Part shown: in pieces, positions 449-19,242 of the stretch
How the letters are laid out: each line of letters begins with the position of its first letter
Position numbering within the stretch: the stretch's first letter is position 1
From: a virus
Strand: one strand, 5' to 3'
Length of the DNA stretch: 24,254 nt
Virus record (IMG/VR): IMGVR_UViG_3300006735_000244
Location: 1-24,254 of that record
Translations under genes and position numbers: made by a program
Notes under the pieces: model-generated
What the model saw: the letters and a program-made list of their open reading frames with translations, nothing else
Database searches by the model: none
Told to the model about the DNA's origin: nothing

Positions 449-963
449 TATGTGTCTCCTACTTTTTGAAAATATGCGTAAGTAGTATTACCGCCACTCC
501 AGCCACCTACATACTCAAATCCTTGACCCATACCACATTCAAACCGTACTTTTGTATTTGTTGTTTCTGTAACGTCAAGCAAATATTCACATGAAGCCGA
601 ATTATCTGTATTTAAACCAGTACTATATCCACCACCTCCAAAATGACAGGGAACGCTTGCTGCATGCCCATAATTACTATTATCAGTAGTGATTCTAATA
701 TTTGCTGAACATCTTTGTGATTTACTTGTTGTGTTGTTAATATACAAATAGGCAGTAAATGATATGTAATAAATACCAGTTTCTGAAAAAGAAAATGTTC
801 CTGACGAATTGTTTATACCACCAACAATACCTGGACTATAAGTATCTGCTCTTTCCCAGTTATTAGCTGTAAGCAATGTATTTCCTTGATGAGCTGCTGT
901 GTACCTCCAAAGATCTGCTATTAAACCTTTTTGACTTGTACTGTTACCATAGTGTATAGCCAT
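448..963 (-). CDS. C1q/TNF-like jelly-roll tail adhesin (171 aa)
   Basis: A 171-aa protein rich in beta-strand, Gly, Ser, Thr and aromatic residues. The middle carries FSFSETGIYYISFTAYLYI (around residues 57-75), the pattern of a C1q/TNF-like strand (F-x-x-x-G-x-Y-x-I/V-x-F). The last strand, TYAYFQKVGDT, is the usual C-terminal strand of this fold. Four cysteines (in RCSAN, PCHFG, SCEYL and FECGM) could pair or bind metal. Phage proteins of this type usually form trimeric knobs at fibre tips and bind host surface molecules. The gene follows gp17 through a TAATG overlap and precedes a fibre-assembly-like gene, so I infer a separately encoded fibre tip or host-range adhesin. The fold call is from pattern only, and the receptor is unknown. 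Confidence 0.72.
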   Translation of the reverse strand: MAIHYGNSTSQKGLIADLWRYTAAHQGNTLLTANNWERADTYSPGIVGGINNSSGTFSFSETGIYYISFTAYLYINNTTSKSQRCSANIRITTDNSNYGHAASVPCHFGGGGYSTGLNTDNSASCEYLLDVTETTNTKVRFECGMGQGFEYVGGWSGGNTTYAYFQKVGDT

Positions 964-3900
964 TACGATACCTCCGTTAAATTAAACTTGTACTTCTTAC
1001 CATTGCGTTTGTTCACTAAGAACAGATCCTCTGCTCCTTCTTGTATAGTATAACTTCCCCAAGTTCCGTCAACATCATTCGATCCACCTTCGTTAGATAA
1101 GTTAAGGTCATTGGTGTAGATGTTTCTCCAACGTAAACTTGTAGTGCCTAAATCGTAAGTGTTGTTAAGATCAGGAACGGTATCACGATACATTCGAACA
1201 AGACTGTTGTGGACTCTCATTCTCGTTGTACCATTAGTTTTGAATGCAATTTCATCATTTGCATCAAAGTGAATTAATGTATTTGTATCACCTTCGTGTA
1301 AAACAGCACCAGCAGTAACTAAATCATCACAAGTTATACTGCCATCTACATTAATTCCAGCACTTGTAGTCTCAAATTTTTTACTACCTGAATGATTTAA
1401 TTCACAAGCTCCGTTTTCTATAAATTTAGCTTGAACCTGATTACCTGCTGCATTCTCAAAATGATTTTGAGTCGAACGATGATATAAATAATTAGTACTA
1501 TTTACAAGGTAAGAATGGCTTCCATCGTGATAAATTTGTAGGTCCGAAGAATCTCCAAAGTTAACCTTATGGTTATCATCTAAAGAAATATTATGGCTGT
1601 TTGTATCTAAGTCACCGCCTAGTTGTGGTGAACTGTCAGATACTAAGTCAGAGTTAATTGTAGTCCAACTTGTAGTTCCACTTCCATTTGTAGTAAGAGC
1701 TTGACCATTAGTTCCTGATATAGGAGGAAAGGTAAATGTATAGCTTGCTTGTCCTGATTGATCTGATGGTGCAGCTAGTTTTACATACTGGGTATTTCTG
1801 CCAAGTTGTAATCCAGAGTTATTTAAGATTGATCCAAAGGCTCCACTAGCATTTGTACAAGTTCTTAAAGTTATATTTGCTAAACTACCTGGAGTAATTG
1901 TAGGCTCAGCGTTACTGCTATCCCTAACTAATACAATGTCGTGACCTTGAAAAGTATCTCCAGAAATAGTAAAAGTATTACTTGCAGTAAAATTTCCCGA
2001 CCCATCAGTTGTTTGAATAGCATTACTAGCTCCTGTAGCTGCTGCTACTGTCTCAAACGTAGGGTCAGCACCATTATTAGCTCTTAAAAACTTTCCGTTA
2101 CTATTGCTATCACCATGTAATAACTTATCTAAAGTGACCGCCTGATCTGCCAACTTAGCGGTTATGACTGATCCGTTCTGTAAGATAGTACTTGTTACTG
2201 TGTTGTTTCCTGGAGTAGCCAGGTTAACAGTAGAACCCATTACGACAACAAAATAATCTGTGCCACTTGCAGGAGCAGATCCTGTAGGTAATTGAAGTGT
2301 TCCTCCATTTAAAGAAAAACCTTCAGATGGTCTACCAGTACCTTCGTTTGGTTTTTGTATAACACCAGCAATACTAAGCAATACTTGTTGAGCGTTTACA
2401 GGTGCATTGCTTAAAGTAAAGTCAATAAGACTTCCGTTAAAAGCAGGGGTAAGTGTAGATACAAAGAAGTTACCTACTGATTGAGTTTCTTTAAATGCAG
2501 CTGGAGATAAAGATGTATCGTAAACTAAAAGTTTATTTTGATCTTTTGCGTAAATTAAATCTCCTTCTGAGTTACCTGTCGCATCGCCAACTGTATCTAC
2601 TACTCTGTATCTTTCTCCAAAATCGTTTATATCGTCACTAAGTTGTTTAACGTCAACTTCTTTAGCAAGTAATTTATGGTAGTTGTAAGTGTTAGAAGAT
2701 CCTGTAGACGTAACCATCAAGCCAAGTCCAGCACCTAATGTTTGACTAAATAGACTAGAAGGAAATCCGTTTATTGTTACGTTGTCAGATCCATTACCAC
2801 TTGTTCTTGCGTTACTTGCTACACCAGATCCGTTAGTAATAAGACCGCCAGCATCAGCAATAGATATAACTACACCAGAAGAAGGTTGCGTAGCAGGGAA
2901 AACAGTTTCATTTGCTATAACTTCTAGTCCACCAATAGGAGCTATTTGTGCAGCTACATAATCTACGACTGCTCCAGAGGTAGGAAACTTTGCGTCATCA
3001 TCAGTAATAGTGGTCTGTTTAGCCATACCATCTAACTGGTTAAGATCAGCTATGTCAGAAGTAAGGGCTGTATTGTCAGCTAATTTAGATGCCGTACCTG
3101 ACTGCATACCAGCTAACTGCGTTAACTCGCTATCGAGAGGCTGAAGAGTTGCAGCAACAGAGGCAATGTAGGCTTTGCTTGATTGCTGTGTAGGTACTTT
3201 TGTGTCTAAGTTAGAACTAAAATTATCTTCGTCTACAACAAACTGCATAGCAGCTGTAGTTGTATCGCTGTTCATTACAGCACCAGCTGCATCTACATTT
3301 GTTGCATCTGTAACGTCTGCGCTTGCTTCAATAGCATTTAGTTTTGTGTGGTCAGCATCTGTAAAAACATTACTGTCTGATGCAGATTCCACCAGGGTTC
3401 TTATTTCTGCTGCTGTTTGATCTGCTGTAGCACCATCTTCTACGTTCAACATTGTGCGAACATTAGCTGGCGTAATCTCTTCTACTACCCCTGCACCACT
3501 AGAATCTCTACCTAAAATTCTGTCTGTAGCTGATACGTTTTGAATTTTTGCGTAGGTAACTGCATCATCTGCAACAGCATTTGTGTCTACCGCATTGTTT
3601 GCTAACTCACTTGCAGTAATAGCGTCAGCTGCAATTTGAGTTGCAGTAATAGTATCGTTAACTAACTTTGCGCCTGTAATTGTAGTGTTTGCAATATCTC
3701 CGTTAACTATGGTTGCATCAGCAATCTGTGTCGATGTAATACTGCCACTCCTCTCTAGATACGCTTTTGTTACTACATCCTGGGCGTTTACTGGATCTGC
3801 AACATTAGATAATCTTTGACTGCTTAAAGTAGGAATACCTGTACTTGCATCAATAGATATACCTTGTTTAAGTGCGTCATCTAACTCCTGGGCTATAAAT

Positions 3901-4217
3901 AAACTTTGCTTTTCTGCGGTATCTAAATCAGCAGCTGTAAGAGTTGACCCATCTTCAAAGTCAACTAATGGTGTAGCTAGCGATGATATTCTTTTTATTT
4001 CTACCCTGGTATTTGCACTAGCTAATCCTGTATTTAAAGATATTTTCTTAGGAGTAGTATTAGTTATTACTTGAAACTCAGTACTTCCTGTACCCTGGGC
4101 TTTTTCTACAAAGTTAACAAATACTTTTATGTGTTCTTCTTTTATGTAAGGAAAGGTAAAAGTAAATTCCTGATCTCCAGCAGAGTTGCTAGTTATAATT
4201 CTTTGTGCGTAAGCCAT
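963..4217 (-). CDS. gp17: Tail fibre protein, T7 gp17-like N-terminus (1084 aa)
   Basis: Residues 1-150 match the tail-attachment domain of T7 gp17: start MAYAQRIITSNSAGDQEFTF, then FPYIKEEHIKVFVN, FEDGSTLTAADLDTAEKQSL and QELDDAL. This part docks to the gp11/gp12 tail tube. Residues about 159-225 form a run of short degenerate repeats (T-x-T-Q-I-A-D-A-T/I type), followed by long Thr/Asp/Ala-rich beta regions. Around residue 880 there is a DSSDLQIYHDGSHSYL block typical of marine phage fibres, and the C-terminus ends DLFLVNKRNGKKYKFNLTEV. The protein is about twice the T7 length (553 aa); the extra length lies in the shaft and distal part. I see no clear intramolecular chaperone or depolymerase motif. 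The start codon overlaps the gp16 stop (TAATG). Trimeric assembly is inferred from the family. Confidence 0.93.
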   Translation of the reverse strand: MAYAQRIITSNSAGDQEFTFTFPYIKEEHIKVFVNFVEKAQGTGSTEFQVITNTTPKKISLNTGLASANTRVEIKRISSLATPLVDFEDGSTLTAADLDTAEKQSLFIAQELDDALKQGISIDASTGIPTLSSQRLSNVADPVNAQDVVTKAYLERSGSITSTQIADATIVNGDIANTTITGAKLVNDTITATQIAADAITASELANNAVDTNAVADDAVTYAKIQNVSATDRILGRDSSGAGVVEEITPANVRTMLNVEDGATADQTAAEIRTLVESASDSNVFTDADHTKLNAIEASADVTDATNVDAAGAVMNSDTTTAAMQFVVDEDNFSSNLDTKVPTQQSSKAYIASVAATLQPLDSELTQLAGMQSGTASKLADNTALTSDIADLNQLDGMAKQTTITDDDAKFPTSGAVVDYVAAQIAPIGGLEVIANETVFPATQPSSGVVISIADAGGLITNGSGVASNARTSGNGSDNVTINGFPSSLFSQTLGAGLGLMVTSTGSSNTYNYHKLLAKEVDVKQLSDDINDFGERYRVVDTVGDATGNSEGDLIYAKDQNKLLVYDTSLSPAAFKETQSVGNFFVSTLTPAFNGSLIDFTLSNAPVNAQQVLLSIAGVIQKPNEGTGRPSEGFSLNGGTLQLPTGSAPASGTDYFVVVMGSTVNLATPGNNTVTSTILQNGSVITAKLADQAVTLDKLLHGDSNSNGKFLRANNGADPTFETVAAATGASNAIQTTDGSGNFTASNTFTISGDTFQGHDIVLVRDSSNAEPTITPGSLANITLRTCTNASGAFGSILNNSGLQLGRNTQYVKLAAPSDQSGQASYTFTFPPISGTNGQALTTNGSGTTSWTTINSDLVSDSSPQLGGDLDTNSHNISLDDNHKVNFGDSSDLQIYHDGSHSYLVNSTNYLYHRSTQNHFENAAGNQVQAKFIENGACELNHSGSKKFETTSAGINVDGSITCDDLVTAGAVLHEGDTNTLIHFDANDEIAFKTNGTTRMRVHNSLVRMYRDTVPDLNNTYDLGTTSLRWRNIYTNDLNLSNEGGSNDVDGTWGSYTIQEGAEDLFLVNKRNGKKYKFNLTEVS
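3543..3743 (-). repeat. Degenerate peptide repeats in tail fibre shaft
   Basis: Fibre residues about 159-225 consist of imperfect units of 9-10 residues built on 'A-D/N-x-A/T-I/V-T/D-x-x-x-I/L-A/V' (SITSTQIADATI, TITGAKLVNDTI, TATQIAADAI, TASELANNAV, DTNAVADDAV). A similar unit returns near residues 675-700 (nt 2118-2195). The DNA copies differ mostly at third positions, so the peptide is conserved rather than the DNA freshly duplicated. The same motif appears in the fragment gene at the left edge. Confidence 0.75.
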
Positions 4218-7200
4218 TAGTTAAGTTGAGCTAAGAACTGCTGTGAATCATTGCGACTTTGTTTATCGCTCATACTGTTTAGTCTATCTCTTGTGTATTG
4301 TTTATCAATGATTTTCTGTTGTTTATCATTTATCATTTGTTGTATATCAGGTCTTTCTTCTAAAAACTTCAATTTTGCTTTGTCTTTAAATTCCGCAACA
4401 ACATTCTTAATCATTGTCATTCTTGGGCTTTCAACTTCGCTGCTAACATAATAATCTAAAGAGGCATAAACTGGATCTTTTGTGACTAACGATGTTAGTT
4501 CTTCCCATAAAGTATTACCAGATTGGTTTTTTATTTCTTTTGTACCTATTGTTATAAGCCTGTTTAATTCCTCTCTGTTTAAAACTTTGTCTGATAAGTT
4601 AAAAATATTATCATTCCAGGGTTTGTAGTTAGAACCTTTACCATACAACTTACTTAGCTCTACATCGACAGGATGCGTAGATTTAGAGCGACTAGGAAAT
4701 GCGGAAGTCGGTGTAATCATTTTATAGAAAAACTTTAACCAGGGCATATCTTCTGGTATTGCACCTGTACCAGCGTAATCTCTGTCGTCTATAGGATCTC
4801 CTGAGTAGTTATGTAATACAGGTGGTAGCCCTTCTCTTGCTCCAGGAACTTGTAATTGTATTCTTTGACCTGTGTTTGATACAACATTAAATGGAAAAGG
4901 TAGTTCACTAGCTACAATATCTCTTCTTGCTTCTCCTATATTAATTTTTCTAATAGCAGCTGGCACTAGCAATGATGATAGCTTTCTTTCTATATATCTA
5001 CTAAATGCACCAGTTTTACCTTTCTTCATTCTTCTTGCAGCATCTTCATCGAAACCAGCCACAACGTCAAATATTTCAGTAATACTAGATAATATTTGTT
5101 TGCTAAATTGACCCATACCTAATGCTCTTGCAACGTGTGCAATTTTCATTGTAACTATAGAGCTTTCTACCTCTTTTTCTTCTTCTGTAAGGCTATTGCC
5201 AACTTCTGCATATTCTCCTATTGCACCAAAGATATTGCTTAATGTATCAAAAGTCTGTAGTGAGTACCAGGGTGTCCACTCTTCGCTATCGCTAAATGGA
5301 TTCTTAAATCTTATACTCATAGGCTCTCTACCTCTCTCTACACTTTCTGGGCCAGCTTCTCTGTTTCTAAAGTTAGTAGACCTAAAGCCAGTAAACTCAA
5401 CTAATCCTGTAGATAGTAACGCTATACCACCAGCTAGTGTTGTAGTACCTAACGCCATCTCCCCTATAGCTCTATCTCTTGTAAATAAATCTTCTGAAGT
5501 TATATCTCTCCAAAATGTATCTACAAATGGAGCAGTAATAGGAAATGCTCTTGCGCTTGCCTTTACAATATTTATTGGCCCTCTAGGTAGTGGATATATA
5601 AGACCAAATGCAGGGTAGTTTTCTACTACGTTTCCTAGTGCTTTTGGTACAAGTCCAACAGCTTGAGATGCTTTTGCCATGCCACCAGCTACACCTCCTT
5701 GATTAAATATGTTACTTCCTTCGTTTATGTATTTGTTTGCAAAGTTATGTACGTCTAAAGGATCTGTAATACCACTTTCTCTAGCTTTTCTTACACCATA
5801 ATCGTATGTTCTTGGTGCTGGTACAACATCTAGTGAATCAGTAAAGTTAACCCAATCCATAATATATCTTGCATTTTGACCAGTAAGCGCACCATTTTCT
5901 ATTTTCTTACCATTAGCAAGTGTTACATCTACCATTTCTGCTTTGACTAACTCAACAGCCCTGTCACTTGCATAGTTAAACGCCTCGTTAGATCCAGGGC
6001 GCATACCTAATACTGTCTCTGCGTGGTATAACTCCTGGTCTAAAAACCTAACGTATTCCATACTTGGGCCAACTAATGAACTCATAAATGTATCTACACC
6101 ACCAGCTAAACGACCTGTAGCTTTTGGTACTGCGCTAATTACTCTTAAGGCAGCATTAGCAAAAAAGTTTTTATTGTTTGGATCTGCGTGCCATATATCA
6201 CTTTTCTTACTTACCTGTACTTCATCACTTCCCAGGCTAAGTTGGTCAACAGGATTAAATCTACTATTAGTTCTTAGTTGCATCTGATCTACACCTAAGT
6301 TACCAAAGGTTTCATTCTCCATTAAAGTTGCGCCCATAAGACGAAAAGCATTACCTAAATTTTGGTAGTACTGTCCATATATCATTGCTCCTAATCTTGC
6401 CCTTCTAAAACTCTTATACGCCTCTGCTTTGTTTCCTGTTATAGATTGGCCTACGCCTCGACTAAAGCCTCCCATAGTCTGTATAACAGGCAATGTAGCT
6501 GCTCTATATAAACCACCTATCATCATCTTCCAGGTAGTTTCTCCTGACAGTAATATTGCACCTCGATAAAAGTTAAGTAGTCTTCTTTGCGTTAAGCCAC
6601 CTTTAGGAGTTTGTTGAATTAAGTCAGATATATGTTTGTTAAATCCTCTATTTTTTTGTGAGTAGTTAGAGATAGCAACCATTACATCTCCTAGCTCTAT
6701 TGCTTCTTGTGTTAGTTCTCCGCTTTCGATAGCATCTAGCAACTTAGGATCTAACTTATCGTTCAATAAGTCTTCTGATTTTGCAATAGCTTGTTCTAAT
6801 AAAGTTCTTTTTGGTGCTTCTGGAGTTGCACTAGGAGGTACGCTTGCATCAGATCCTATGATTCTGTTAGCAGAATTGTTATCAAAGATAGCTATTTCAT
6901 CTGCTGGCGCATTAGGGCGACCAGTATCTCTAGGCTCGTATCTTATTCCTGCATAACCCCTGTCTGTTAAATATGCTTTTATACCTTCTATTTGTGCAGG
7001 GTTTAGTTCTAATCCGTTCTTGGTTTTCTTTACCTGACCTAATCCTAAGTCAACTACTAAATCAGTTAGCCTTTTATTCATTGCAGATAAGTCTAATATT
7101 TTTATGTCGTTAATTAAATCACCATATACTTCTGCATTATCGTAGCCATCCATAACTTTTATACTGCTTTCGTCAGTAGTAAAATAAACAGCTTGACCCA

Positions 7201-10200
7201 TAGCACCTGTTTCCTGGGTAACGTCAAAGCCGTCAGTAAGAGCTTTTGTACCAGCTTCATTAGATGTACCTTTTCTAAGAGTTACTTCGCTAGGTAAATC
7301 AGATAAATCTACGTCATCTGCCCTAAACATTAACTTACCCATACTTAGTCTTTGTCCTGTCTTTCTCATTACACTCATATACGCAACATCTAATTTAAGT
7401 TGCTCTCCTAGCATTGCTTTAAATCTTTGTAGTTCAATACCTTTTTCTGACTCAGGAGCAGATAAATATGCTTGGCTTTGTATTCCTGTTTTGTTTCTTA
7501 CAATGTCTGTTTGTAGTTGTAGTGTAGCTAGAGCTATTAAATCATCTGCCGATCTTGGATCTCCTTTCAATGCTCTTTCTACGCTTGATATTATTGCATC
7601 TGAATCTCCACCATCCATCTTTAATTTATCTACAGCCTGGTTAAATAACATAGCTCTATCAAGATTTGCTATACCTGTAGCTTCTGCTCTGTCAAACGTA
7701 AGGTTGTATATTAAATCGTTAAAGGCTTTATAGGATGCAGCTAACTGTTCGCTAGGAGTTTCTACATATTGTGTTTTACCGCTGCGACTAATTAATCTTC
7801 TAGGCTCATCTACTGCTTGGTTCTTAAGAGCTTCTTCTATACTCATATCTCCGCTATTTATTGCGTTTATATTTTTCTTTATTTCGTTAGCTAGTTTATC
7901 TGGATCTGGAGGATCAATAGCAAGTTGTGTTGCTGGTGCAATTAAGTCATTTGATACAGCTTGTTCTGCTGTTTCTCCACGCATTGATCTCTCAAATACG
8001 TCATCCCAAGTTTGATAACCTCTACCTTTTAAGAAATTACCTGTACGTTCAATAATCTGCGCAATCTTCTTAAACGGCTCTGACCAGGTTGCTTTTGGAT
8101 AATCTGTGTTACGCATATACCAATCACTAAACGCTATAGCTTCTATCTCTTGCCTACCTAATGTGCCATCGAGGATGCTGTCTCTAAACTCTGGCATAGT
8201 CTTAGCAGCTAACTCTCTTATCTCTCTTTCTCCTGCAATAAGAGCTTTTTGATCTGCCTTGCTAAGTAATCTTTTTTGTATTCTGTGGAATGATTCGTGA
8301 AAAGCAGTCCTTAATAATTTATTAAAACCTCTATAGCCACCCTTACTAAACATAGAAATCATTATTAAATCATCTGCTGGATTTTTAGCAGAGATAAATT
8401 CTCCAGCTGCGCTATAGCTATCTCCTTCTGTTAACCCATAGTCAGCTGCTTGTTTAGCTGTAAGCTTACCTTCTAACTCTGCTACAAATTGTACGTTTAC
8501 ATCTTTGCCAGCCATTCTTTGCACTTCTTCTAACAACTCAAATTTCTCTCTATAGTTCAGCATATTCATGCCTGTATAGTCGTTACCTAGTGTTCCGTAG
8601 GATCTTTTATGTATAGGATTTATTCCGTTAAGTGGATCTAAGCTAAGTTGTCCTGACTTATAACCTAGTGACTTGTAACCAGCTTGGGCTACATACTCTA
8701 CACCTTCTCTGTAGTTGGCCTTAAAATCATCATATAAGCTATCTGCTATACGAATAATATCTTGCTCTGTAAAGCCATTATCATCCATTAAGAATTTAAT
8801 GTAGTCTGGATTATTTTTACTACCACCTGTCATCTCTACAACTGTTCTTCTGTTAGGCCGTTTAGTAACTATATAAATAGCTTTATCAATGTCATTATCA
8901 AAAGATACACTCATTTGACGATACCTAGACTTAGCTCCTTTTAATCTTTTAGGTAGTTCTGGCTCTGTAATAATGTTTGATGTACCTGTAGCTACTGTCT
9001 CAGTAGTTTGTTTTACAAAAATTGTGTCTGGTTTTTTATTAATTTCTGTAGGATTATTAGTTACACCACCTCTTTTTACTTGCTCTTCAACAATAGTTTT
9101 ATATTCCAGGTCTAACTCTAATCGCTGCACATTATTATTAGCTTTCATGTAAGCGTTATATTTCTCCTCTAATTTCTTTGATTCAATATCAAACAGTCTT
9201 TCTGCTTCTTTTTCTGTGTTTTTACCTAAGTTTTCTAAAAACTCATCAGTTGTTATTTCCATGTGGAAAAGATGATGGTCTTTTGTTAACTGTCTAGCGT
9301 AACCTCTTGGATCTTTACCGCTATAACCTTCTATGTTTTTTAATTGTCTTGCAGATAAAGGATAGCCTTCCTTCTCTAGCTCTAACTTTCTAGTCTGTAA
9401 ATATTCATTTGAACCTTCAAAAATTTTTAAAACATTTGTTTTATATGCGTATCCGCTTCCTGGTGCATCTGCTATAGGCATTAACTGCTCGTCAACAAAT
9501 TTTTCTAATTTTTCTTTTCCGCTTAAAATGTCTTGCTTTTTAGTTGTTGTTAAAGTTGCTTCTTCTCTAAGTACTGTTTTTATTTTTTGTATGTTTGCTT
9601 GCACGACAGTAGCAGCTTTTTTGTTTCCTTTAACTTGTTTTATTAGGTCATTAACTAAATCACTTAGCTTACCTTCCGTTCCAACAAGTCTGTTAAATAC
9701 GACTTCTCCCTGTAAAGATTCATCTCTTGCAGCTTTACTAGCATCAACATCAATAACATTTCCTACACTTTCTAATGTTCCTGCTTTTTTTGTGTTTGCA
9801 GCAACTCCTAATGCGTTTATTTCTGACCTTAACTGTTGTCTAATTGCAATGCGTACATTTAATTGTTTCTCAAAGTTAGATGTAATAAGCGTGTCATAGC
9901 CAAGAAGAGGTAGAGCATTTGGATCAGTAGTCTCTATAACACTTGACTGCCTTGCAATCATTCCAGCTTCTGCTGTTTTAGATGCACTCCAGCCTTTCTT
10001 CTTTGCAGCTTTTGCCAGGTCAAACATTACTTGAGTTTGCGCATTGCTGCTTCCTATCGCTACTCCCATGTCTTCTGTCATTCTTCCTGTGGCAACTTGG
10101 TCAAATAATGCTCCAGGTAACTTTGACAAAGGTATTGCTTTTTTCATTACTACACCGCTAGGGCTAATACCTTGCTGTACCATTTCTTCTACGCCCATCT

Positions 10201-11833
10201 TTGTCTCTCTAATTATCTTTGCTGCATCAACACCTGTACCATTTCCTTCTGCAATATTCTGCATAGCACCTTTTACTCTTGCAGTTGCTGCATCTGGAGC
10301 ATCAAGATACCTAACATTTACAGTCGGTATTTGATGCCTTTTTGCTGCTGCTAACCTGTTATGTCCATTAACAACATAAGTTTTTCCGTCAGCTGGATCT
10401 CTCCATACACTTACAACACCAGCTAAGTCAGTATTGTATTTAGTTATTGCACCTAAAGATCCACTCTGTCCAGTTTTTGTTTGCCCTGCTTGTTTAAATT
10501 GAAATCTTTGTGAATTGACAGCAATATCATTTACTCCAATAGTTGCAAGTTCTGTACTAGGTACAGGTTGTAAATCTAGACTTTTAGTCTCATCTATACC
10601 TCCTGTCGACTCAGCTATAAATTTCTGCCTTGATGCCTTTACTTCTAAATTTTTTCTAGCTTGCTCTAATTCATTTAATGCGTCATTAAATTCTAATTCG
10701 CTTTGATCTACTCCATCTGTATTAAGTTGCTGTCCGCTAGTGCCTGGAAAATCTTTTGCTTTTTGTGCCTTATCTTGCTCTTGGATAATTTCTACAGCTT
10801 GCTCTGTTGCTGACTTCTTTTCTCTACCTGTAAGTTTCGTAATCCCTACTTCTGCCGACTCTTGATCTGTGAGTTCTTTTAAGGGGTTAGCTATACCTCT
10901 AGCTGTATTTCCTTTCTTAGCAACTTTTGCACCTTTAGTAAAATAATCTGCAATAGCATCAAACATTATTAAAGTTTCTCTTTTACCACCACCTAATTGC
11001 TCTAGTGATCCACCTAATAAAGGGCCAGCTATAAATGTACCTACTACTCCATTCTTTAATTTTGCTTCTGCTAAGGTATCGTCTTCTGTAACTGCAAATT
11101 CATTTAATAGATTTTTTAATTTTCCGTCTGGTACGGCACTAGCAAGTAAGTTGACCATATTACCATCCCAGGGATCTTCTATAGCAAAATCATTTATTGC
11201 TCCTGGAAGCCAACCTTCTTGCGCACCTCGTATAAATCTACCTTGTGATCTTTCAAAAAAACCTTTTAACTTAGGTGCTTTACTTGCAAGCTTAGTTTTC
11301 ATAGTGCCTTTAAATAAAGGAACTTGCGGTACTTTTACACCACTAGATTTAAGTCCTTTAGCAACTAATGCAAACTGGCCTATCGAAGCCAGTAATCCAC
11401 CAATCATGTGTTCCGCATTGTTTTGCGCAACATTGTCAAATGGTTTACCTAGAAAAGGAATGTCAGCATCTGGGTTTTCAAAGGTAGTAGGTTGCATATT
11501 AAATGCTTTACCTATTATTCCTGGTTTAGTTTCTTTAGGTTTGTTTGTAAAAAAGTCTCTACCTGTAATACTTTCATATAGATTGCCACCTGACATTACA
11601 TTCTTTATTGCGTCAGTAGGGTTATATGTAGCTACTTCATCGTAAACAGAATCGTATATATTTTGAACAAAGTCTCTACCAGCCTGTCCAAATGTTCTAC
11701 CGACAGATGCACCTAAATCAAAATCTCCACCTTCCTGGAATCCTTCTTTTGGTTGTTCTTTTATAGATCCCTCTGGAGCAACGTAACGAGTTTTAGTTTC
11801 TCCGTTCTCGTCTTTATATTCTTCAAAAGGCAT
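4217..11833 (-). CDS. gp16: Giant gp16-like internal virion / ejection protein with polyvalent-type enzyme domains (2538 aa)
   Basis: By position (after gp14 and gp15, before gp17) and by its long C-terminal helical region, this is the gp16-like core protein, which in T7 is ejected into the host with the DNA. It is 2538 aa against 1318 in T7. Visible parts: N-terminal helical region 1-420 with a hydrophobic stretch near 142-160; ParB-like domain about 425-545 (VVNGHNRLAAAKR near 487-499, then ALFDQVATGRMTEDMG); a segment at 970-1045 resembling accessory domains of large polyvalent proteins (FDNDIDKAIYIV, DYIKFLMDDNGF); a zincin-like region with HESFH at 1179-1183 and candidate third ligands E1229 or E1231; an ADP-ribosyltransferase-like region 1515-1660 (LRKGTS, QAVYFTT, GYAGIRYE, DEIAIFDNNS); and a C-terminal structural region 1670-2538 with LLNFYRGAILLSGETTW and a hydrophobic segment near 2126-2150. 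No lytic transglycosylase is seen at its N-terminus. It starts 2 nt after the gp15-like gene and ends in a TAATG overlap with gp17. Enzyme activities are predictions. Confidence 0.85.
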   Translation of the reverse strand: MPFEEYKDENGETKTRYVAPEGSIKEQPKEGFQEGGDFDLGASVGRTFGQAGRDFVQNIYDSVYDEVATYNPTDAIKNVMSGGNLYESITGRDFFTNKPKETKPGIIGKAFNMQPTTFENPDADIPFLGKPFDNVAQNNAEHMIGGLLASIGQFALVAKGLKSSGVKVPQVPLFKGTMKTKLASKAPKLKGFFERSQGRFIRGAQEGWLPGAINDFAIEDPWDGNMVNLLASAVPDGKLKNLLNEFAVTEDDTLAEAKLKNGVVGTFIAGPLLGGSLEQLGGGKRETLIMFDAIADYFTKGAKVAKKGNTARGIANPLKELTDQESAEVGITKLTGREKKSATEQAVEIIQEQDKAQKAKDFPGTSGQQLNTDGVDQSELEFNDALNELEQARKNLEVKASRQKFIAESTGGIDETKSLDLQPVPSTELATIGVNDIAVNSQRFQFKQAGQTKTGQSGSLGAITKYNTDLAGVVSVWRDPADGKTYVVNGHNRLAAAKRHQIPTVNVRYLDAPDAATARVKGAMQNIAEGNGTGVDAAKIIRETKMGVEEMVQQGISPSGVVMKKAIPLSKLPGALFDQVATGRMTEDMGVAIGSSNAQTQVMFDLAKAAKKKGWSASKTAEAGMIARQSSVIETTDPNALPLLGYDTLITSNFEKQLNVRIAIRQQLRSEINALGVAANTKKAGTLESVGNVIDVDASKAARDESLQGEVVFNRLVGTEGKLSDLVNDLIKQVKGNKKAATVVQANIQKIKTVLREEATLTTTKKQDILSGKEKLEKFVDEQLMPIADAPGSGYAYKTNVLKIFEGSNEYLQTRKLELEKEGYPLSARQLKNIEGYSGKDPRGYARQLTKDHHLFHMEITTDEFLENLGKNTEKEAERLFDIESKKLEEKYNAYMKANNNVQRLELDLEYKTIVEEQVKRGGVTNNPTEINKKPDTIFVKQTTETVATGTSNIITEPELPKRLKGAKSRYRQMSVSFDNDIDKAIYIVTKRPNRRTVVEMTGGSKNNPDYIKFLMDDNGFTEQDIIRIADSLYDDFKANYREGVEYVAQAGYKSLGYKSGQLSLDPLNGINPIHKRSYGTLGNDYTGMNMLNYREKFELLEEVQRMAGKDVNVQFVAELEGKLTAKQAADYGLTEGDSYSAAGEFISAKNPADDLIMISMFSKGGYRGFNKLLRTAFHESFHRIQKRLLSKADQKALIAGEREIRELAAKTMPEFRDSILDGTLGRQEIEAIAFSDWYMRNTDYPKATWSEPFKKIAQIIERTGNFLKGRGYQTWDDVFERSMRGETAEQAVSNDLIAPATQLAIDPPDPDKLANEIKKNINAINSGDMSIEEALKNQAVDEPRRLISRSGKTQYVETPSEQLAASYKAFNDLIYNLTFDRAEATGIANLDRAMLFNQAVDKLKMDGGDSDAIISSVERALKGDPRSADDLIALATLQLQTDIVRNKTGIQSQAYLSAPESEKGIELQRFKAMLGEQLKLDVAYMSVMRKTGQRLSMGKLMFRADDVDLSDLPSEVTLRKGTSNEAGTKALTDGFDVTQETGAMGQAVYFTTDESSIKVMDGYDNAEVYGDLINDIKILDLSAMNKRLTDLVVDLGLGQVKKTKNGLELNPAQIEGIKAYLTDRGYAGIRYEPRDTGRPNAPADEIAIFDNNSANRIIGSDASVPPSATPEAPKRTLLEQAIAKSEDLLNDKLDPKLLDAIESGELTQEAIELGDVMVAISNYSQKNRGFNKHISDLIQQTPKGGLTQRRLLNFYRGAILLSGETTWKMMIGGLYRAATLPVIQTMGGFSRGVGQSITGNKAEAYKSFRRARLGAMIYGQYYQNLGNAFRLMGATLMENETFGNLGVDQMQLRTNSRFNPVDQLSLGSDEVQVSKKSDIWHADPNNKNFFANAALRVISAVPKATGRLAGGVDTFMSSLVGPSMEYVRFLDQELYHAETVLGMRPGSNEAFNYASDRAVELVKAEMVDVTLANGKKIENGALTGQNARYIMDWVNFTDSLDVVPAPRTYDYGVRKARESGITDPLDVHNFANKYINEGSNIFNQGGVAGGMAKASQAVGLVPKALGNVVENYPAFGLIYPLPRGPINIVKASARAFPITAPFVDTFWRDITSEDLFTRDRAIGEMALGTTTLAGGIALLSTGLVEFTGFRSTNFRNREAGPESVERGREPMSIRFKNPFSDSEEWTPWYSLQTFDTLSNIFGAIGEYAEVGNSLTEEEKEVESSIVTMKIAHVARALGMGQFSKQILSSITEIFDVVAGFDEDAARRMKKGKTGAFSRYIERKLSSLLVPAAIRKINIGEARRDIVASELPFPFNVVSNTGQRIQLQVPGAREGLPPVLHNYSGDPIDDRDYAGTGAIPEDMPWLKFFYKMITPTSAFPSRSKSTHPVDVELSKLYGKGSNYKPWNDNIFNLSDKVLNREELNRLITIGTKEIKNQSGNTLWEELTSLVTKDPVYASLDYYVSSEVESPRMTMIKNVVAEFKDKAKLKFLEERPDIQQMINDKQQKIIDKQYTRDRLNSMSDKQSRNDSQQFLAQLN

Positions 11834-11835
11834 GA

Positions 11836-14682
11836 TTAATTAGAAAGTGATTTTAGAGCTTCTTCAGCAGCTGGCAGATACTTTAGGTAAGCACCTGTCC
11901 TATAAACTGTCCATGCTTTAAAGCCTTGCATATCATAGATATACTTAGCTCCTCTACCATTGATTAATGGATCGAACAGTTGCTCATTTGAGTCTAGCGC
12001 AAGTTGCCCTCTACGCTCTTCTCCCATCATAAATCCAGGTCTATCTAACATATTTATTTGCCACAGTCCGTAACTGTTGTCATCTCCTTCTGTGTTATGT
12101 GCGTGTGGTCTACCACTAGATTCTGCCATTCCTATTGCTGCCATAATTACAGCTTCATTCTCTGTAAAGTCAGAAGTAAGTGCAATCTTCAGCATACTAG
12201 GAATTGTTTGTGTACCTTCAGCAGGGATGTAGTTATAGGGATTATTATTAACTTCTCCTGCCATGACAGATCCACCAAGCAATAGTTCGACAGGGAACAT
12301 TGCAACTTTTTGTATGAAGCTAGGAGGTTTTGGTGTGTTGGTATTTATCTTTGAGTACTTTTTATTAAATCCATCTATGTCATTTATCATTGTTTCTGAC
12401 AAAGAAATACCATGCTTATGTAATTGGTTATTAAAAAATTGATATGGAGTTACACCGTTATATTTTTTTAACGCTCTAAACATTTTTTTAATATCTTTGT
12501 CTATTCCGTCTATACCATTAGTGTTCCAATCATTTAATATTTTGTCTAAATCTTCTTTAGGTAACATAGGTACTTTGCTTTTGTACATAGTCACTAACCT
12601 TGTGGCCTCACCTTTGTCAATTTTTCCTTTTTGATCTACGCCAATCATTACATTTTTAAAATCTTGTATTGAGTCAAATGCTTTTGGTGTTTCTCCGTCT
12701 AAATTTTTGTCTTGATATTTACTCACTAAACCAAAGTCAGTTTCTTGAAAGTATTTAGTTAGTTCTGCGTTAATAACTGACGAACTTTTATTATTTTTTA
12801 ATCCCTCTTCTATTATTTTATTTGCACCATTTGTCATTTTTTGCTCTGCATTACTTAATTCTAACTGTTCTTCCAAGATAAATTCTGATCCTCCAGGAGA
12901 GTCAGACTCAAAGAAATAACCTTTACTTTTAGAACTGGCAAATTTATCTAAATTACTTTTTATAATATCAGCTGCAAAATCTTGATTAGGTTTTGCTACC
13001 TCGCTAACAATAGTGTTTGTTCTATTTATAAGATTCATTCCAACATTTGCATCTATTGCACCAGAGCCAATAAGCCTAGTTACCTTGTCTCTAAACGCAA
13101 CTGCTTTTTGTGGGTTAAGAAATACTTGTGAGTATTCTTTGTTTAGTTCTGTCGCTAACAATGTTCTTTCTGGCCCAAACAATAAGCCATCACTTGTTAC
13201 TATTTTTTTATTTGCGTAAGTTAAAACGCCTTCTTGATGTCTTATAGGAACACCAGAGATTATTTCGTTTTTTCTTTCTTCAAATTTTTGTTTAACTTTT
13301 GTTAGTTCTGTTTGTATTTTTTCAGAAGCAAATCCACCTTCTGTCTTACTAGCTAACTCATCTATCTTTTTTAACTCAGGTAATATTTCTTCTGTAAACA
13401 TTTTATCTATAAAGTTATTACCTTTTTGTTCCTGTGTTGTTTTTTGTTGATTTCTAGCGTTAACTAATTCCTGGTTGTATTTGTATTTAGTATTAGCTTC
13501 CCATCCTGCTCCAGCACCTTTGTACCATAATAGATTTTCGTTAATACCTATAACCTCTTTATTACCCTTATCAAATCTAATACGATCTTCTTTCTTCCCT
13601 GTCATTAATTTTAACCAGGGATCAAATGCTTCATCTGCTTCTAAGAAGTTTCCTGTTTCTTGACCATTAATAAATAAAGCGTCTTTCCATTGAGTAACAA
13701 TCTTTTCTATAAACTTATCTCTTTCTTCTTTTGTTCTATATAGCTGCATAAATCTAGAATCATCGAGTATGGCATTTAATTCTTTAACTACTTCGTCTTC
13801 GCTGTTACCTATAAGGTGCATCCCTGCTAATCCATTAACTTGTATTAAGGATTCTTCTTCATACTTATCTTTGTTGTATTGAATAACCGCTTTTTCTTGC
13901 CTGTTTATGTCGTTAGCATAAGCAGCTAAGACAGTAGGAGATACTTCTTTCGACTCTAATTCAGTTAAAGGTATTACACTTCCATCGCTACTCCCATAAA
14001 CAGTATCCCTTCTCCATTTTTGATATAGTTCGCTATCTGGCCTAAGACTGTTTAAAGGTATTTCAGTACCATCTGCTGCTATTACTATTGCTCCTGCTGC
14101 CTTACTAGACAAACTTGCTGCGTTAGTCTTTATATTTATAATTCTATTTTGCGACTGTAGGTGAGGTATAAGTAAGCTGTTTCTTGCATCTATGTAATCA
14201 AGGCTTTTATCAGCTGCTTTCTTTTGTTCAATAGTTGAGCTTGTATCTTCAACTATCTTTTGCAAGTCTTGCCTGGTATCTTGCAGTATTTCTACAGGAG
14301 ATTTTTTACTACCAAAGTTTTGTAACGCAAGGCTTTTGCTGTAATCCTTTGCTTTTGTATCTATTTGTTTTGTTCTTTTAGCTAAAGTACCAGCTGTAGC
14401 TACCAGTTGAGTGTTGAATTGTCCAAGCGAGTCAGCTAAGTTTTGTATATCCCTAGAATTATCCATACCTATGCTGCTGTCAAAGAACTTTCCTAGCTGC
14501 AAACTAGGTACATTCATCCTTTCTACTTGCTGGTAAGTATCAACAATAGGAGCAGATACTTTTATTCCTGGAGGAGTAAGACCCTTAGTAGTAATAGTCG
14601 AGTCAACACCATATTGACTTAGTAATCTTCTTGAAGTTTTACGGCTGCTATCGCCTGATGATTTGCCTAGAGAAATTGCCAT
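11836..14682 (-). CDS. gp15: gp15-like internal virion protein with C-terminal lytic transglycosylase domain (948 aa)
   Basis: The long charged helical N-terminal 800 residues, the place between gp14 and gp16 and the size (T7 gp15 is 747 aa) mark this as the gp15-like ejected core protein. Residues about 825-945 form a lysozyme-like transglycosylase domain: AAIGMAESSGRPHAHN with likely catalytic Glu854, SYGLWQINM at 870-878, and a closing FKAWTVYRTGAYLKYL segment. This is the SLT/goose-lysozyme fold pattern. In T7 this activity is at the N-terminus of gp16, so here it has moved across the gene border. A short hydrophobic stretch lies at about 792-808. I infer local peptidoglycan cleavage for tube passage through the periplasm at DNA entry. 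The ATG overlaps the gp14 stop (TAATG), and the gene ends 2 nt before gp16. Confidence 0.88.
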   Translation of the reverse strand: MAISLGKSSGDSSRKTSRRLLSQYGVDSTITTKGLTPPGIKVSAPIVDTYQQVERMNVPSLQLGKFFDSSIGMDNSRDIQNLADSLGQFNTQLVATAGTLAKRTKQIDTKAKDYSKSLALQNFGSKKSPVEILQDTRQDLQKIVEDTSSTIEQKKAADKSLDYIDARNSLLIPHLQSQNRIINIKTNAASLSSKAAGAIVIAADGTEIPLNSLRPDSELYQKWRRDTVYGSSDGSVIPLTELESKEVSPTVLAAYANDINRQEKAVIQYNKDKYEEESLIQVNGLAGMHLIGNSEDEVVKELNAILDDSRFMQLYRTKEERDKFIEKIVTQWKDALFINGQETGNFLEADEAFDPWLKLMTGKKEDRIRFDKGNKEVIGINENLLWYKGAGAGWEANTKYKYNQELVNARNQQKTTQEQKGNNFIDKMFTEEILPELKKIDELASKTEGGFASEKIQTELTKVKQKFEERKNEIISGVPIRHQEGVLTYANKKIVTSDGLLFGPERTLLATELNKEYSQVFLNPQKAVAFRDKVTRLIGSGAIDANVGMNLINRTNTIVSEVAKPNQDFAADIIKSNLDKFASSKSKGYFFESDSPGGSEFILEEQLELSNAEQKMTNGANKIIEEGLKNNKSSSVINAELTKYFQETDFGLVSKYQDKNLDGETPKAFDSIQDFKNVMIGVDQKGKIDKGEATRLVTMYKSKVPMLPKEDLDKILNDWNTNGIDGIDKDIKKMFRALKKYNGVTPYQFFNNQLHKHGISLSETMINDIDGFNKKYSKINTNTPKPPSFIQKVAMFPVELLLGGSVMAGEVNNNPYNYIPAEGTQTIPSMLKIALTSDFTENEAVIMAAIGMAESSGRPHAHNTEGDDNSYGLWQINMLDRPGFMMGEERRGQLALDSNEQLFDPLINGRGAKYIYDMQGFKAWTVYRTGAYLKYLPAAEEALKSLSN

Positions 14683-15332
14683 TAGCTAGTAGCGATTTTG
14701 TAATTGACACCAGCATTTACACCACTCATAATGCCAGCACCGATAGAGAATGGACTTAAACTTACTTTAGGTCTAGGTACAGGTTTCATAGGATCGAGAA
14801 TAGTTTTCTTTAAGTATGGAGATATGCTTGCAATTCTACTAGCTCGTTCAGTTATGAATCCTACTTTCTCTGTCTGCTTACCAGCTGTAGCAAAGGCTAA
14901 GTTAGTGTCACTATAGTAATCGTATTTTCCTAGCTCTCTGTTTACATCTGCAAGTAAGTTAGCAACATTAGCTCCTGCTCTACCTGTCGCCAGTATCGTA
15001 CCTTTCTGTTCTTTAGCTTCTAACTGCGCTTCTCTTGTTTCTTGTGCTGACTTCTGTTGCATCTGTCTTATCTGTTGATTAGCCTGGTTCATTTTATTTG
15101 CTTCTGCTATTAACGCTAGCTCTTCATTCTGAAACATCTGTTCGTTTCTTAATGTCTCTTGGTTAGCTTCAAAGTTTCTTTGGTTCTGAGCAGAGAGAGT
15201 ATTGTACTCATATTGAAACTGGTCAGATAAATTAGCTGCTTCTATCGCTCTGTTCTGTGCAGCGTTTTGAGCAATAGCTTGACCTATGCTCATAATTCCA
15301 CTAAAGATACCAATAGCAACAGCGGTACACAT
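14682..15332 (-). CDS. gp14: gp14-like internal virion protein (216 aa)
   Basis: A 216-aa protein, close to T7 gp14 (196 aa). The N-terminus MCTAVAIGIFSGIMSIGQAI is a hydrophobic, Gly-rich segment that could insert in a membrane. It is followed by a long Gln/Asn/Glu-rich amphipathic helix (about 20-110, with QANQQIRQMQQK and ETREAQLEAKEQKG) and the conserved-looking ATGRAGANVANLLADVNREL. The C-terminus, ending GAGIMSGVNAGVNYKIATS, is again Gly-rich. T7 gp14 forms the outer-membrane part of the ejection channel. The gene lies 2 nt after the gp13-like gene and overlaps the gp15-like gene (TAATG), the classic 13-14-15-16 order. Identification rests on size, composition, helix pattern and synteny together. 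Confidence 0.87.
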   Translation of the reverse strand: MCTAVAIGIFSGIMSIGQAIAQNAAQNRAIEAANLSDQFQYEYNTLSAQNQRNFEANQETLRNEQMFQNEELALIAEANKMNQANQQIRQMQQKSAQETREAQLEAKEQKGTILATGRAGANVANLLADVNRELGKYDYYSDTNLAFATAGKQTEKVGFITERASRIASISPYLKKTILDPMKPVPRPKVSLSPFSIGAGIMSGVNAGVNYKIATS

Positions 15333-18987: not shown

Positions 18988-19242
18988 TTAACACTTCCAT
19001 TTACGAAGGGCTTTGTTGATCCTGCTCTTAGGATTCCTAGCAGTTTTGCTAGATGTTCTTTTCTTCTTCATCCCTTCCATCCTGGCGCAAAAAGATTTCT
19101 TTCTTTTGCCGCCTCCAGGTTGAGGTGCTTTCAGATTAGAACCTGTTGCTTTATTTATCTTTCTTCTACCAGCAGCTGTTAAACCGCCTGACCTACTCTT
19201 ATGTTTGCCCATTTTAAGGCGTACATTTTTCTTAGTAGCCAT
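18988..19242 (-). CDS. Small basic conserved protein (84 aa), unknown function
   Basis: An 84-aa protein with 29 Lys/Arg and a single acidic residue. Core motifs are KSRSGGLTAAGRRKINKATG, SNLKAPQPGGGKRKKSFCAR, then MEGMKKKRTSS and the ending ALRKWKC, with Cys52 and Cys84. I recognise this as a family widespread in environmental phages and some bacteria that has no assigned role (possibly the DUF6321 type, not verified). The SGGL and SFCARMxGMK motifs are more specific than mere basic composition. The ATG directly follows the stop of the 25-aa gene in the same frame (TAA ATG). Position between capsid and gp11 suggests a head-related or DNA-binding part, by context only. Confidence 0.88.
   Translation of the reverse strand: MATKKNVRLKMGKHKSRSGGLTAAGRRKINKATGSNLKAPQPGGGKRKKSFCARMEGMKKKRTSSKTARNPKSRINKALRKWKC

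Follow-up and report, generated by a model that had tools for sequence, protein, structure and literature searches.

The locus analysed here raises two questions: what fills the middle of a protein that occupies the gp16 position of a T7-like podovirus and is twice the usual size, and whether that middle part reaches the host with the phage DNA. The window, by which we mean the whole 24,254-nucleotide stretch of IMG/VR virus record IMGVR_UViG_3300006735_000244, is a fragment of a marine, Prochlorococcus-infecting MPP-C cyanopodovirus of the P-SCSP1 group (about 90% identity over the whole protein). Its nearest records are 17 Prochlorococcus phages, P-SCSP1a–u, which match the 2538-aa protein over its full length at 88.8–90.6% identity; these phages are described as MPP-C clade isolates in the accessible text of PMC9860041. 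The first-pass annotation had placed a gp16-like gene at 4217–11833 without naming a strand. As Table 1 shows, a single 2538-aa reading frame in the gp16 position does fill this interval, and it lies on the minus strand; the plus strand has no open frame there. The gene sits between the 948-aa gp15-position gene and the T7-type tail-fibre gene, and upstream of it are gp14-like, gp13-like and nozzle (PF25675) genes. An 84-aa, very basic protein is encoded at 18988–19242 (minus strand), between the capsid and adaptor genes. In P-SCSP1u, the counterpart of the large gene takes up 20.3% of the 37.9-kb genome and is annotated as hypothetical.

Table 1. Features of the gp16-position gene and its neighbours (window positions; residues refer to the protein concerned)
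Feature	Location	Strand	Basis or remark
gp16-position internal virion protein with module block, 2538 aa	4217..11833	-	single uninterrupted ORF
N-terminal part	10562..11833, residues 1-424	-	weak profile similarity
ParB/Noc-like NTPase + HTH module	9542..10561, residues 425-764; NGHNR 489-493	-	fold + profile
Variable, mostly helical linker	8969..9541, residues 765-955	-	partly lacking or substituted in relatives
Small conserved alpha/beta subdomain before zincin	8657..8968, residues 956-1059	-	also in the P-SCSP2 protein (no HExxH)
Zincin-like domain	8054..8578, residues 1086-1260	-	model + motif
HESFH	8285-8299, residues 1179-1183	-	HExxH motif
E1229, downstream Glu of zincin	8147-8149	-	conserved column
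ADP-ribosyltransferase (ART)-like fold	6851..7309, residues 1509-1661	-	triad positions K1521, Y1550, E1646
Conserved internal-virion-protein core	4220..6595, residues about 1747-2538	-	profile homology
gp15-position protein, 948 aa	11836..14682	-	PF18896 5.1e-13, PF01464 1.1e-4
SLT lysozyme-like domain of gp15-position protein	11908-12186, residues 833-925	-	Pfam
gp14-like internal virion protein	14682..15332	-	PF24072 1.8e-9
Tail fibre, T7-type N-terminal domain, next downstream	963..4217	-	PF03906 3.5e-26

A Pfam scan of the 2538 residues gives nothing above noise, the rows for the window in the ART and block alignments likewise have no Pfam match above noise, and neither Pfam nor PHROG scans yield an RNA polymerase match. 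PDB sequence searches with the core, ART, block, ART+core and whole protein return no match at E ≤ 0.01. The weaker matches include FtsH (0.032), which aligns with the HExxH stretch, and PARP3 (0.4); a CheY match to the ART profile at 0.023 is taken as chance. Hydropathy reveals weak segments only, at 143–161 and 2122–2150. Because Pfam scores for the window protein and for the narrow ParB, zincin and ART alignments stayed at noise or below threshold, predicted folds and wider sequence sets were needed. The first scan turned up relatives at 36 IMG/VR loci, and profiles of five protein parts, each built from the window and six or seven of these loci, were later widened over 51 non-redundant representatives. 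The core alignment has 24 rows; among the loci listed for modelling, 44 of 48 were taken into A7 and 36 of 37 into A8. Residue counts at motif columns set gap rows aside, and in the VIA structure comparisons Z < 8 is the tool's caution level.

The C-terminal ~790 residues share homology with the C-terminal halves of internal virion proteins of ordinary length, 1230–1402 aa. In hhalign, this core aligns with residues 497–1244 of the P-SSP7 gp16 family at 99.3% (E 2.7e-19; 97.3% over residues 582–1227 with other settings), and with the C-terminal halves of the HTVC011P, CRP-114, ProddE and S-CBP1 proteins at 99.0, 99.8, 99.4 and 97.0%. The core profile matches 35 of 82 P-SSP7-type frames and all four named marine or environmental gp16s. 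A tblastn search from the core of relative L162 recovers the P-SCSP1 phages (29%, 2e-82), P-SSP7 (3e-6) and also genes labelled 'internal virion protein D'. PHROG 6651, 'internal virion protein', of which P-SSP7 gp16 is a strong member, is matched by 11 of the 24 core rows, the window row not being among them. Finally, a BFVD search with the ART+core model gives 33 matches at E ≤ 0.001, which include internal virion proteins of pelagiphages and Synechococcus phages as well as entries named 'large polyvalent protein' and 'ART-PolyVal-like'; some relatives have thus already been so labelled. The gp16-like designation therefore stands with respect to the core of marine internal virion proteins, while with respect to T7 gp16 itself the likeness is one of synteny only: hhalign gives a probability of 0.3% against a five-sequence T7 profile, which is too remote to exclude kinship, and T7 gp16 is absent among the 50 PDB Foldseek rows listed for the ART+core model, an absence that excludes nothing. 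The same data bear on whether the gene encodes a late intracellular effector that merely adjoins structural genes and is not a virion protein. Homology of the core to internal virion proteins, the gp16 position and the run of gp12–gp15 and fibre neighbours make this extremely improbable.

The 2538-aa protein owes its doubled size to three enzyme-like modules in its middle. Removal of residues 425–1680 leaves 1283 aa, against 1245 aa for P-SSP7 gp16; a remainder of roughly 1300 residues, near the length of T7 gp16, had been proposed. The block is not ordinary gp16 sequence: the ParB, zincin and ART profiles match none of the 82 P-SSP7-type frames (68 of them complete, 1234–1420 aa), nor do they match any of the other nine named gp16s, of which four are marine or environmental and five T7-type. 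Against the P-SSP7 family, hhalign of the three profiles gives ≤0.4%. The N-terminal part shows weaker similarity, with hhalign values of 91.9, 89.7 and 82.3% against the N parts of the HTVC011P, CRP-114 and ProddE proteins over 65–102 columns, 23.7% against the P-SSP7 family, 7.3% against S-CBP1 and 0.1% against T7. A clear match, at 99.8%, is to the N part of the L162 protein (L162:7289–12436), a 1716-aa core homologue that lacks all three modules and nests among block-bearing relatives; its residues 1–905 have no Pfam match. Taken together, the sequence pattern of N part and core would fit an insertion between two older halves. The suggestion that the block was inserted is thus upheld in that ordinary relatives lack it; given the weak match of the N part to P-SSP7 (23.7%), the idea of one clean insertion separating two shared halves stays tentative.

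The first module had been called ParB-like at residues 425–545. Structure prediction and PHROG 21 (residues 426–738, 1e-42) bear this out and extend it: residues 425–764 are predicted to adopt a ParB N-domain fold followed by an HTH. In an AlphaFold2 model of residues 425–1310 (mean pLDDT 77), pLDDT exceeds 90 across most of the ParB region. Foldseek returns 19 matches at E ≤ 0.001, all of them ParB, Noc or KorB (best 1.1e-5), and VIA gives Z up to 10.9, with the N-domain alone superposing 94 residues at 2.5 Å on 7bm8; the structural match continues through the HTH, to about model residue 204. Four of 45 rows match PF17762 (HTH_ParB), the best of them at 2.1e-4. Within NGHNR, which we take to be a ParB motif, the G, H and R are kept in all 43 covering rows. 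The same ParB+HTH module recurs in other phages, where it lies behind the portal domain of the portal protein (L117:4524–7589, L120:8327–11878 and L121:1865–4555); each of these proteins has a PHROG 21 or 113 portal match together with the ParB profile. A module in that location points to a role in handling DNA at the portal vertex no less than to attack on the host. Giant proteins of about 4200–5560 aa with a ParB module occur at L109–L114, some of them ending at contig ends.

The second module was expected to be zincin-like between residues 970 and 1290, and the HESFH motif supports that assignment, with a structure match that is only moderate. An HExxH motif has an expected count of 0.007 from composition; it is kept in 35 of 35 covering rows (42 rows, seven with gaps at the column), and the downstream Glu in 32 of 35. 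We did not accept a lone HExxH as proof of a zincin: T7 gp16 has HERLH at 559, a motif that is present in none of four other T7-type gp16s. In the model, the zincin region has pLDDT mostly of 80–93, and model residues ~650–836 match lethal-factor domains, PPEP-3, Zmp1 and Wss1 at moderate VIA Z of 5.6–6.3. The best of these (Z 6.3, 135 aligned, 4.1 Å) lies below the caution level of 8, and several lethal-factor rows align on the N-terminal, not the catalytic, part of that protein. A helical stretch between the zincin and ART regions (residues 1301–1500; 7334–7933, minus strand) has no known match.

The third module, proposed as ART-like at residues 1515–1660, is a mixed case, as the fold is recovered at 1509–1661 (model range 165–317; Z 7.5) and the catalytic His is not, its place being taken by Lys. 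The AlphaFold2 model of residues 1345–2538 (ART+core) has a mean pLDDT of 71. Its 20 best VIA rows fall on model residues ~160–318 and are diphtheria-toxin-type, MbcT and NatT chains, which we take to be ART folds, at Z 6.2–7.5; the best match (130 aligned, 4.4 Å) is below the caution level of 8. Further rows are tankyrase, PARP, KptA and an anti-CRISPR protein at Z ~5, and from rank 24 on the rows are mixed with unrelated folds elsewhere on the model. Among the 50 PDB rows listed by plain Foldseek for this model there is no ART or gp16 chain, and none has E ≤ 0.001. At the profile level, PF00644 (PARP) is found in 9 of 37 rows (best 4.4e-6) and ART-PolyVal in 1 of 37 at 0.023, the window being among neither; L149 reaches 0.0023 with ART-PolyVal, below its cut-off. 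The L149 protein (L149:3842–7711) is gp16-like without ParB and has a second ART-like stretch at residues 1043–1109 (DUF3990 1.5e-4, below cut-off). Across 26 representatives the triad is H-Y-E in 13, K-Y-E in four, which form the window clade, and something else in nine; the role of each residue at K1521, Y1550 and E1646 is assumed here. Because the catalytic His is absent in the window clade, an active ADP-ribosyltransferase is doubtful here. On this comparison the ART site has decayed or changed several times, with the ParB and zincin motifs fixed. By predicted fold and motif, then, the protein would hold at least two domains of unrelated activity in one polypeptide, and the polyvalent-type domain set that had been proposed, with ParB, zincin-like and ART-like folds together, is recovered. 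Neither of the outcomes named beforehand as fatal to that proposal, models lacking these folds or a block common to all T7-like gp16 proteins, was obtained.

The modules do not travel as a unit. The 36 core-bearing representatives show six module combinations: 19 carry ParB, zincin and ART, seven ParB and zincin, four zincin and ART without ParB, two, which are truncated, zincin and ART, two ParB only, one ParB and ART, and one none. On a core tree built from the 36 core spans of at least 600 aa among the 51 representatives and eight chosen outgroup rows, these labels need ten changes, two for the truncated label; the eight outgroup rows are block-free and lie across a 100/99 branch. The tree carries a warning of long branches, and the changes on it may be gains or losses of modules. 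Module absence in L070, L107, L162 and L069 holds by both motif and HMM. In Nohivirus S31C1 (L002:18417–26311), a 1484-aa ORF with ParB and zincin is directly followed by a 1145-aa ORF. For the latter, hhalign gives 8.8–21.7% against the window core and, over 92 columns, 69.7% against the P-SSP7 family; the ART+core model finds, at 4.3e-4, a BFVD entry of Nohivirus S31C1 that is of equal length. This pair is suggestive only of cargo and core on two genes.

P-SCSP2, a sister phage from the same clade, provides a comparison close to the window. Its gp16-position protein (1596 aa, L124:10595–15385, locus tag 00030) has the core (92.6–93.4%) and the small pre-zincin subdomain (5.4e-17) only; it has no ParB or ART profile match and no HExxH, NGHNR or ART motif. 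P-SCSP2 was isolated on MED4, the same strain as P-SCSP1, and no stable growth curve was obtained for P-SCSP2, as the available text of PMC9860041 relates. The block is thus not strictly needed to infect MED4, as a phage from the same strain does without the three signatures. In that text, a 2022 description of MPP-C, internal virion proteins are placed by gene size and position only and are called unannotatable, and no similarity between P-SCSP1a and P-SCSP2 is reported in g20/g21 and g29/g31, a numbering that may not mean 00030.

Selection on the modules was gauged by dN/dS. Relative to P-SCSP1u, the values are 0.115 for ParB, 0.055 for zincin, 0.094 for ART and 0.085 for the core, with 0.189 for the N part and 0.142 for the linker. 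The corresponding values for ParB, zincin, ART and core are 0.167, 0.122, 0.105 and 0.071 against L014 and 0.240, 0.186, 0.218 and 0.176 against L018, both sets being rough since dS is near or above 1. No part has a lower dN/dS against P-SCSP1u than the helical stretch at 1301–1500 (0.034), and none a higher one against L018 (0.450). Judged from these ratios, the modules are kept nearly as strictly as the core. These values bear directly on the idea that the block is a degenerate remnant, in which inactive folds are kept as spacer or capsid filler. Loss of the ART catalytic His in the window clade and the freely varying linker at 765–955 speak for such decay; the module dN/dS close to that of the core, the invariance of the zincin and ParB motif residues wherever rows cover them, and the 20.3% of a 37.9-kb genome that the gene costs speak against it, and we regard it as very unlikely. 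Shuffling, together with the absence of modules in relatives and in P-SCSP2, instead indicates an insert that is accessory and exchangeable, resembles cargo and evolves under purifying selection. With module sets that differ among relatives, the protein looks like a swappable carrier of these modules into the host along with the DNA.

We therefore consider it probable that this is the gp16-position ejection protein of an MPP-C phage, with a conserved core and an exchangeable module block of ~1250 aa that is ejected with the DNA. Its architecture, core homology, module shuffling and constraint are read from the sequences, and from there we infer ejection, the purpose of which may be host takeover, counter-defence or DNA entry. 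The protein would be packed in the capsid and ejected with the gp14- and gp15-like proteins, the gp15-position protein supplying the lysozyme; an iterated SLT search over the locus frames of 51 representatives finds the domain at 4 of 51 loci, all from close relatives and always in the gp15-position protein. The core would form the inner-membrane or cytoplasmic end of the ejectosome, and the module block would come out into the cytoplasm together with the leading phage DNA. Inside the cell, the ParB-HTH module would most likely bind the entering phage DNA or meter nucleotides, the zincin would most likely cleave its own polypeptide or a host protein, thereby freeing modules or terminating ejection, and the ART module might bind or modify a host target, with a chemistry that may be altered or lost in the window clade.

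The same block could also serve DNA entry, not takeover, with the ParB-HTH clamping or ratcheting DNA, the zincin maturing or dismantling the ejectosome and the ART fold acting only as a binding scaffold. The ParB module behind portal domains (L117, L120 and L121) is consistent with this, as is the fixation of the NGHNR G, H and R (43/43) and of HExxH (35/35) while the ART triad decays; T7 gp16-C, moreover, is placed in the cytoplasm, with DNA-binding activity, by the available text of PMC8954989. P-SSP7 and HTVC011P, however, infect normally with a gp16 that lacks every module, four complete relatives have zincin and ART and no ParB, and the H-Y-E triad in 13 of 26 ART rows suggests real chemistry in many relatives. 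On balance, a role in DNA entry is a possible reading, though clearly the less probable one. A more specific proposal, that a ParB-type nucleotide-gated DNA clamp in the ejectosome, and behind the portal in other phages, ratchets phage DNA inward with the zincin as release switch, is more doubtful again. If true, it would be a kind of DNA-entry motor not met in the literature searched, and the middle of an ejection protein would be an exchangeable cargo bay.

Should the protein be ejected as we propose, T7-like cyanophages would bring enzyme-like modules into the cell ahead of all phage gene expression, by means of a carrier whose job was previously thought to be DNA entry alone. The module shuffle provides natural experiments, with P-SCSP1 having the block and P-SCSP2 lacking it, both from MED4. 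A cytoplasmic role could be probed at named residues: H1179, E1180, H1183 and E1229 in the zincin, NGHNR at 489–493, and K1521, Y1550 and E1646 in the ART region.

Among known systems, P-SSP7 gp16 and internal virion protein D of marine Autographiviridae (PHROG 6651) share gene position and the core (~260–750 aligned columns) with the window protein; unlike it, they have 1230–1402 aa and no ParB, zincin or ART profile match. T7 gp16 is comparable in position and in the size of the block-free remainder, with no detectable sequence similarity, and its SLT domain is in gp16 itself, whereas in the window it is near the C-terminus of the gp15-position protein. In the accessible part of PMC8954989, gp16 homologues span 609–1337 aa, the lysozyme can swap to gp15, and the C-terminal part of T7 gp16 is placed in the host cytoplasm, where it binds DNA. 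For P-SCSP1u itself, the ejectosome is visible, not reconstructed, in slices mentioned in the available portion of a paper on another phage (PMC11440229), and the accessible text of the P-SCSP1u cryo-EM paper describes no core protein.

N4 vRNAP gp50 resembles the window protein as a giant ejectosome component with an HExxH domain; excerpts of a preprint (PMC12633501) describe it as ejected and propose that it refolds in the host cytoplasm. It is an RNA polymerase of ~3500 aa, whereas the window protein has a gp16-type core instead. In the cyanophage A4 pre-ejectosome (PDB 9K3A), chain residues 1419–1600 match the ART model (Z 5.6, 122 aligned, 4.4 Å). ORF27 of Anabaena phage A-4L (L258, 20116–25269, minus strand; 1717 aa), which from its protein length is presumably the chain in 9K3A, has LYHGT and GSGTYF motifs in the ART-matching stretch. 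Against the window family, ORF27 gives hhalign values of ≤5.4% for ART+core and ≤0.3% for single modules, and it belongs to another phage family. N4 vRNAP and, by structure match, the A4 ejectosome are precedents.

A further parallel is with the polyvalent proteins of Iyer et al. 2017 (PMC5512222), which, in the available text, bring several dissimilar domains (MPTase, ART, a ParB) together in a single giant chain, as the window protein does, and which are encoded beside virion genes and predicted to be injected; the window gene likewise has a virion late-gene context. The same text proposes self-processing or release by a peptidase and describes polyvalent proteins as scarce in cyanobacteria. 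Its ParB is DdrB-like, in contrast to the ParB/Noc-like domain with HTH in the window, and the term 'internal virion' does not occur in the text available, whereas the carrier in the window is a T7-like ejection-protein core. None of the titles and abstract openings listed for openly licensed papers pairs a T7-like internal virion protein with these domains, a weak absence. The window protein is a variant of the polyvalent-protein theme in which a T7-like ejection-protein core serves as the carrier.
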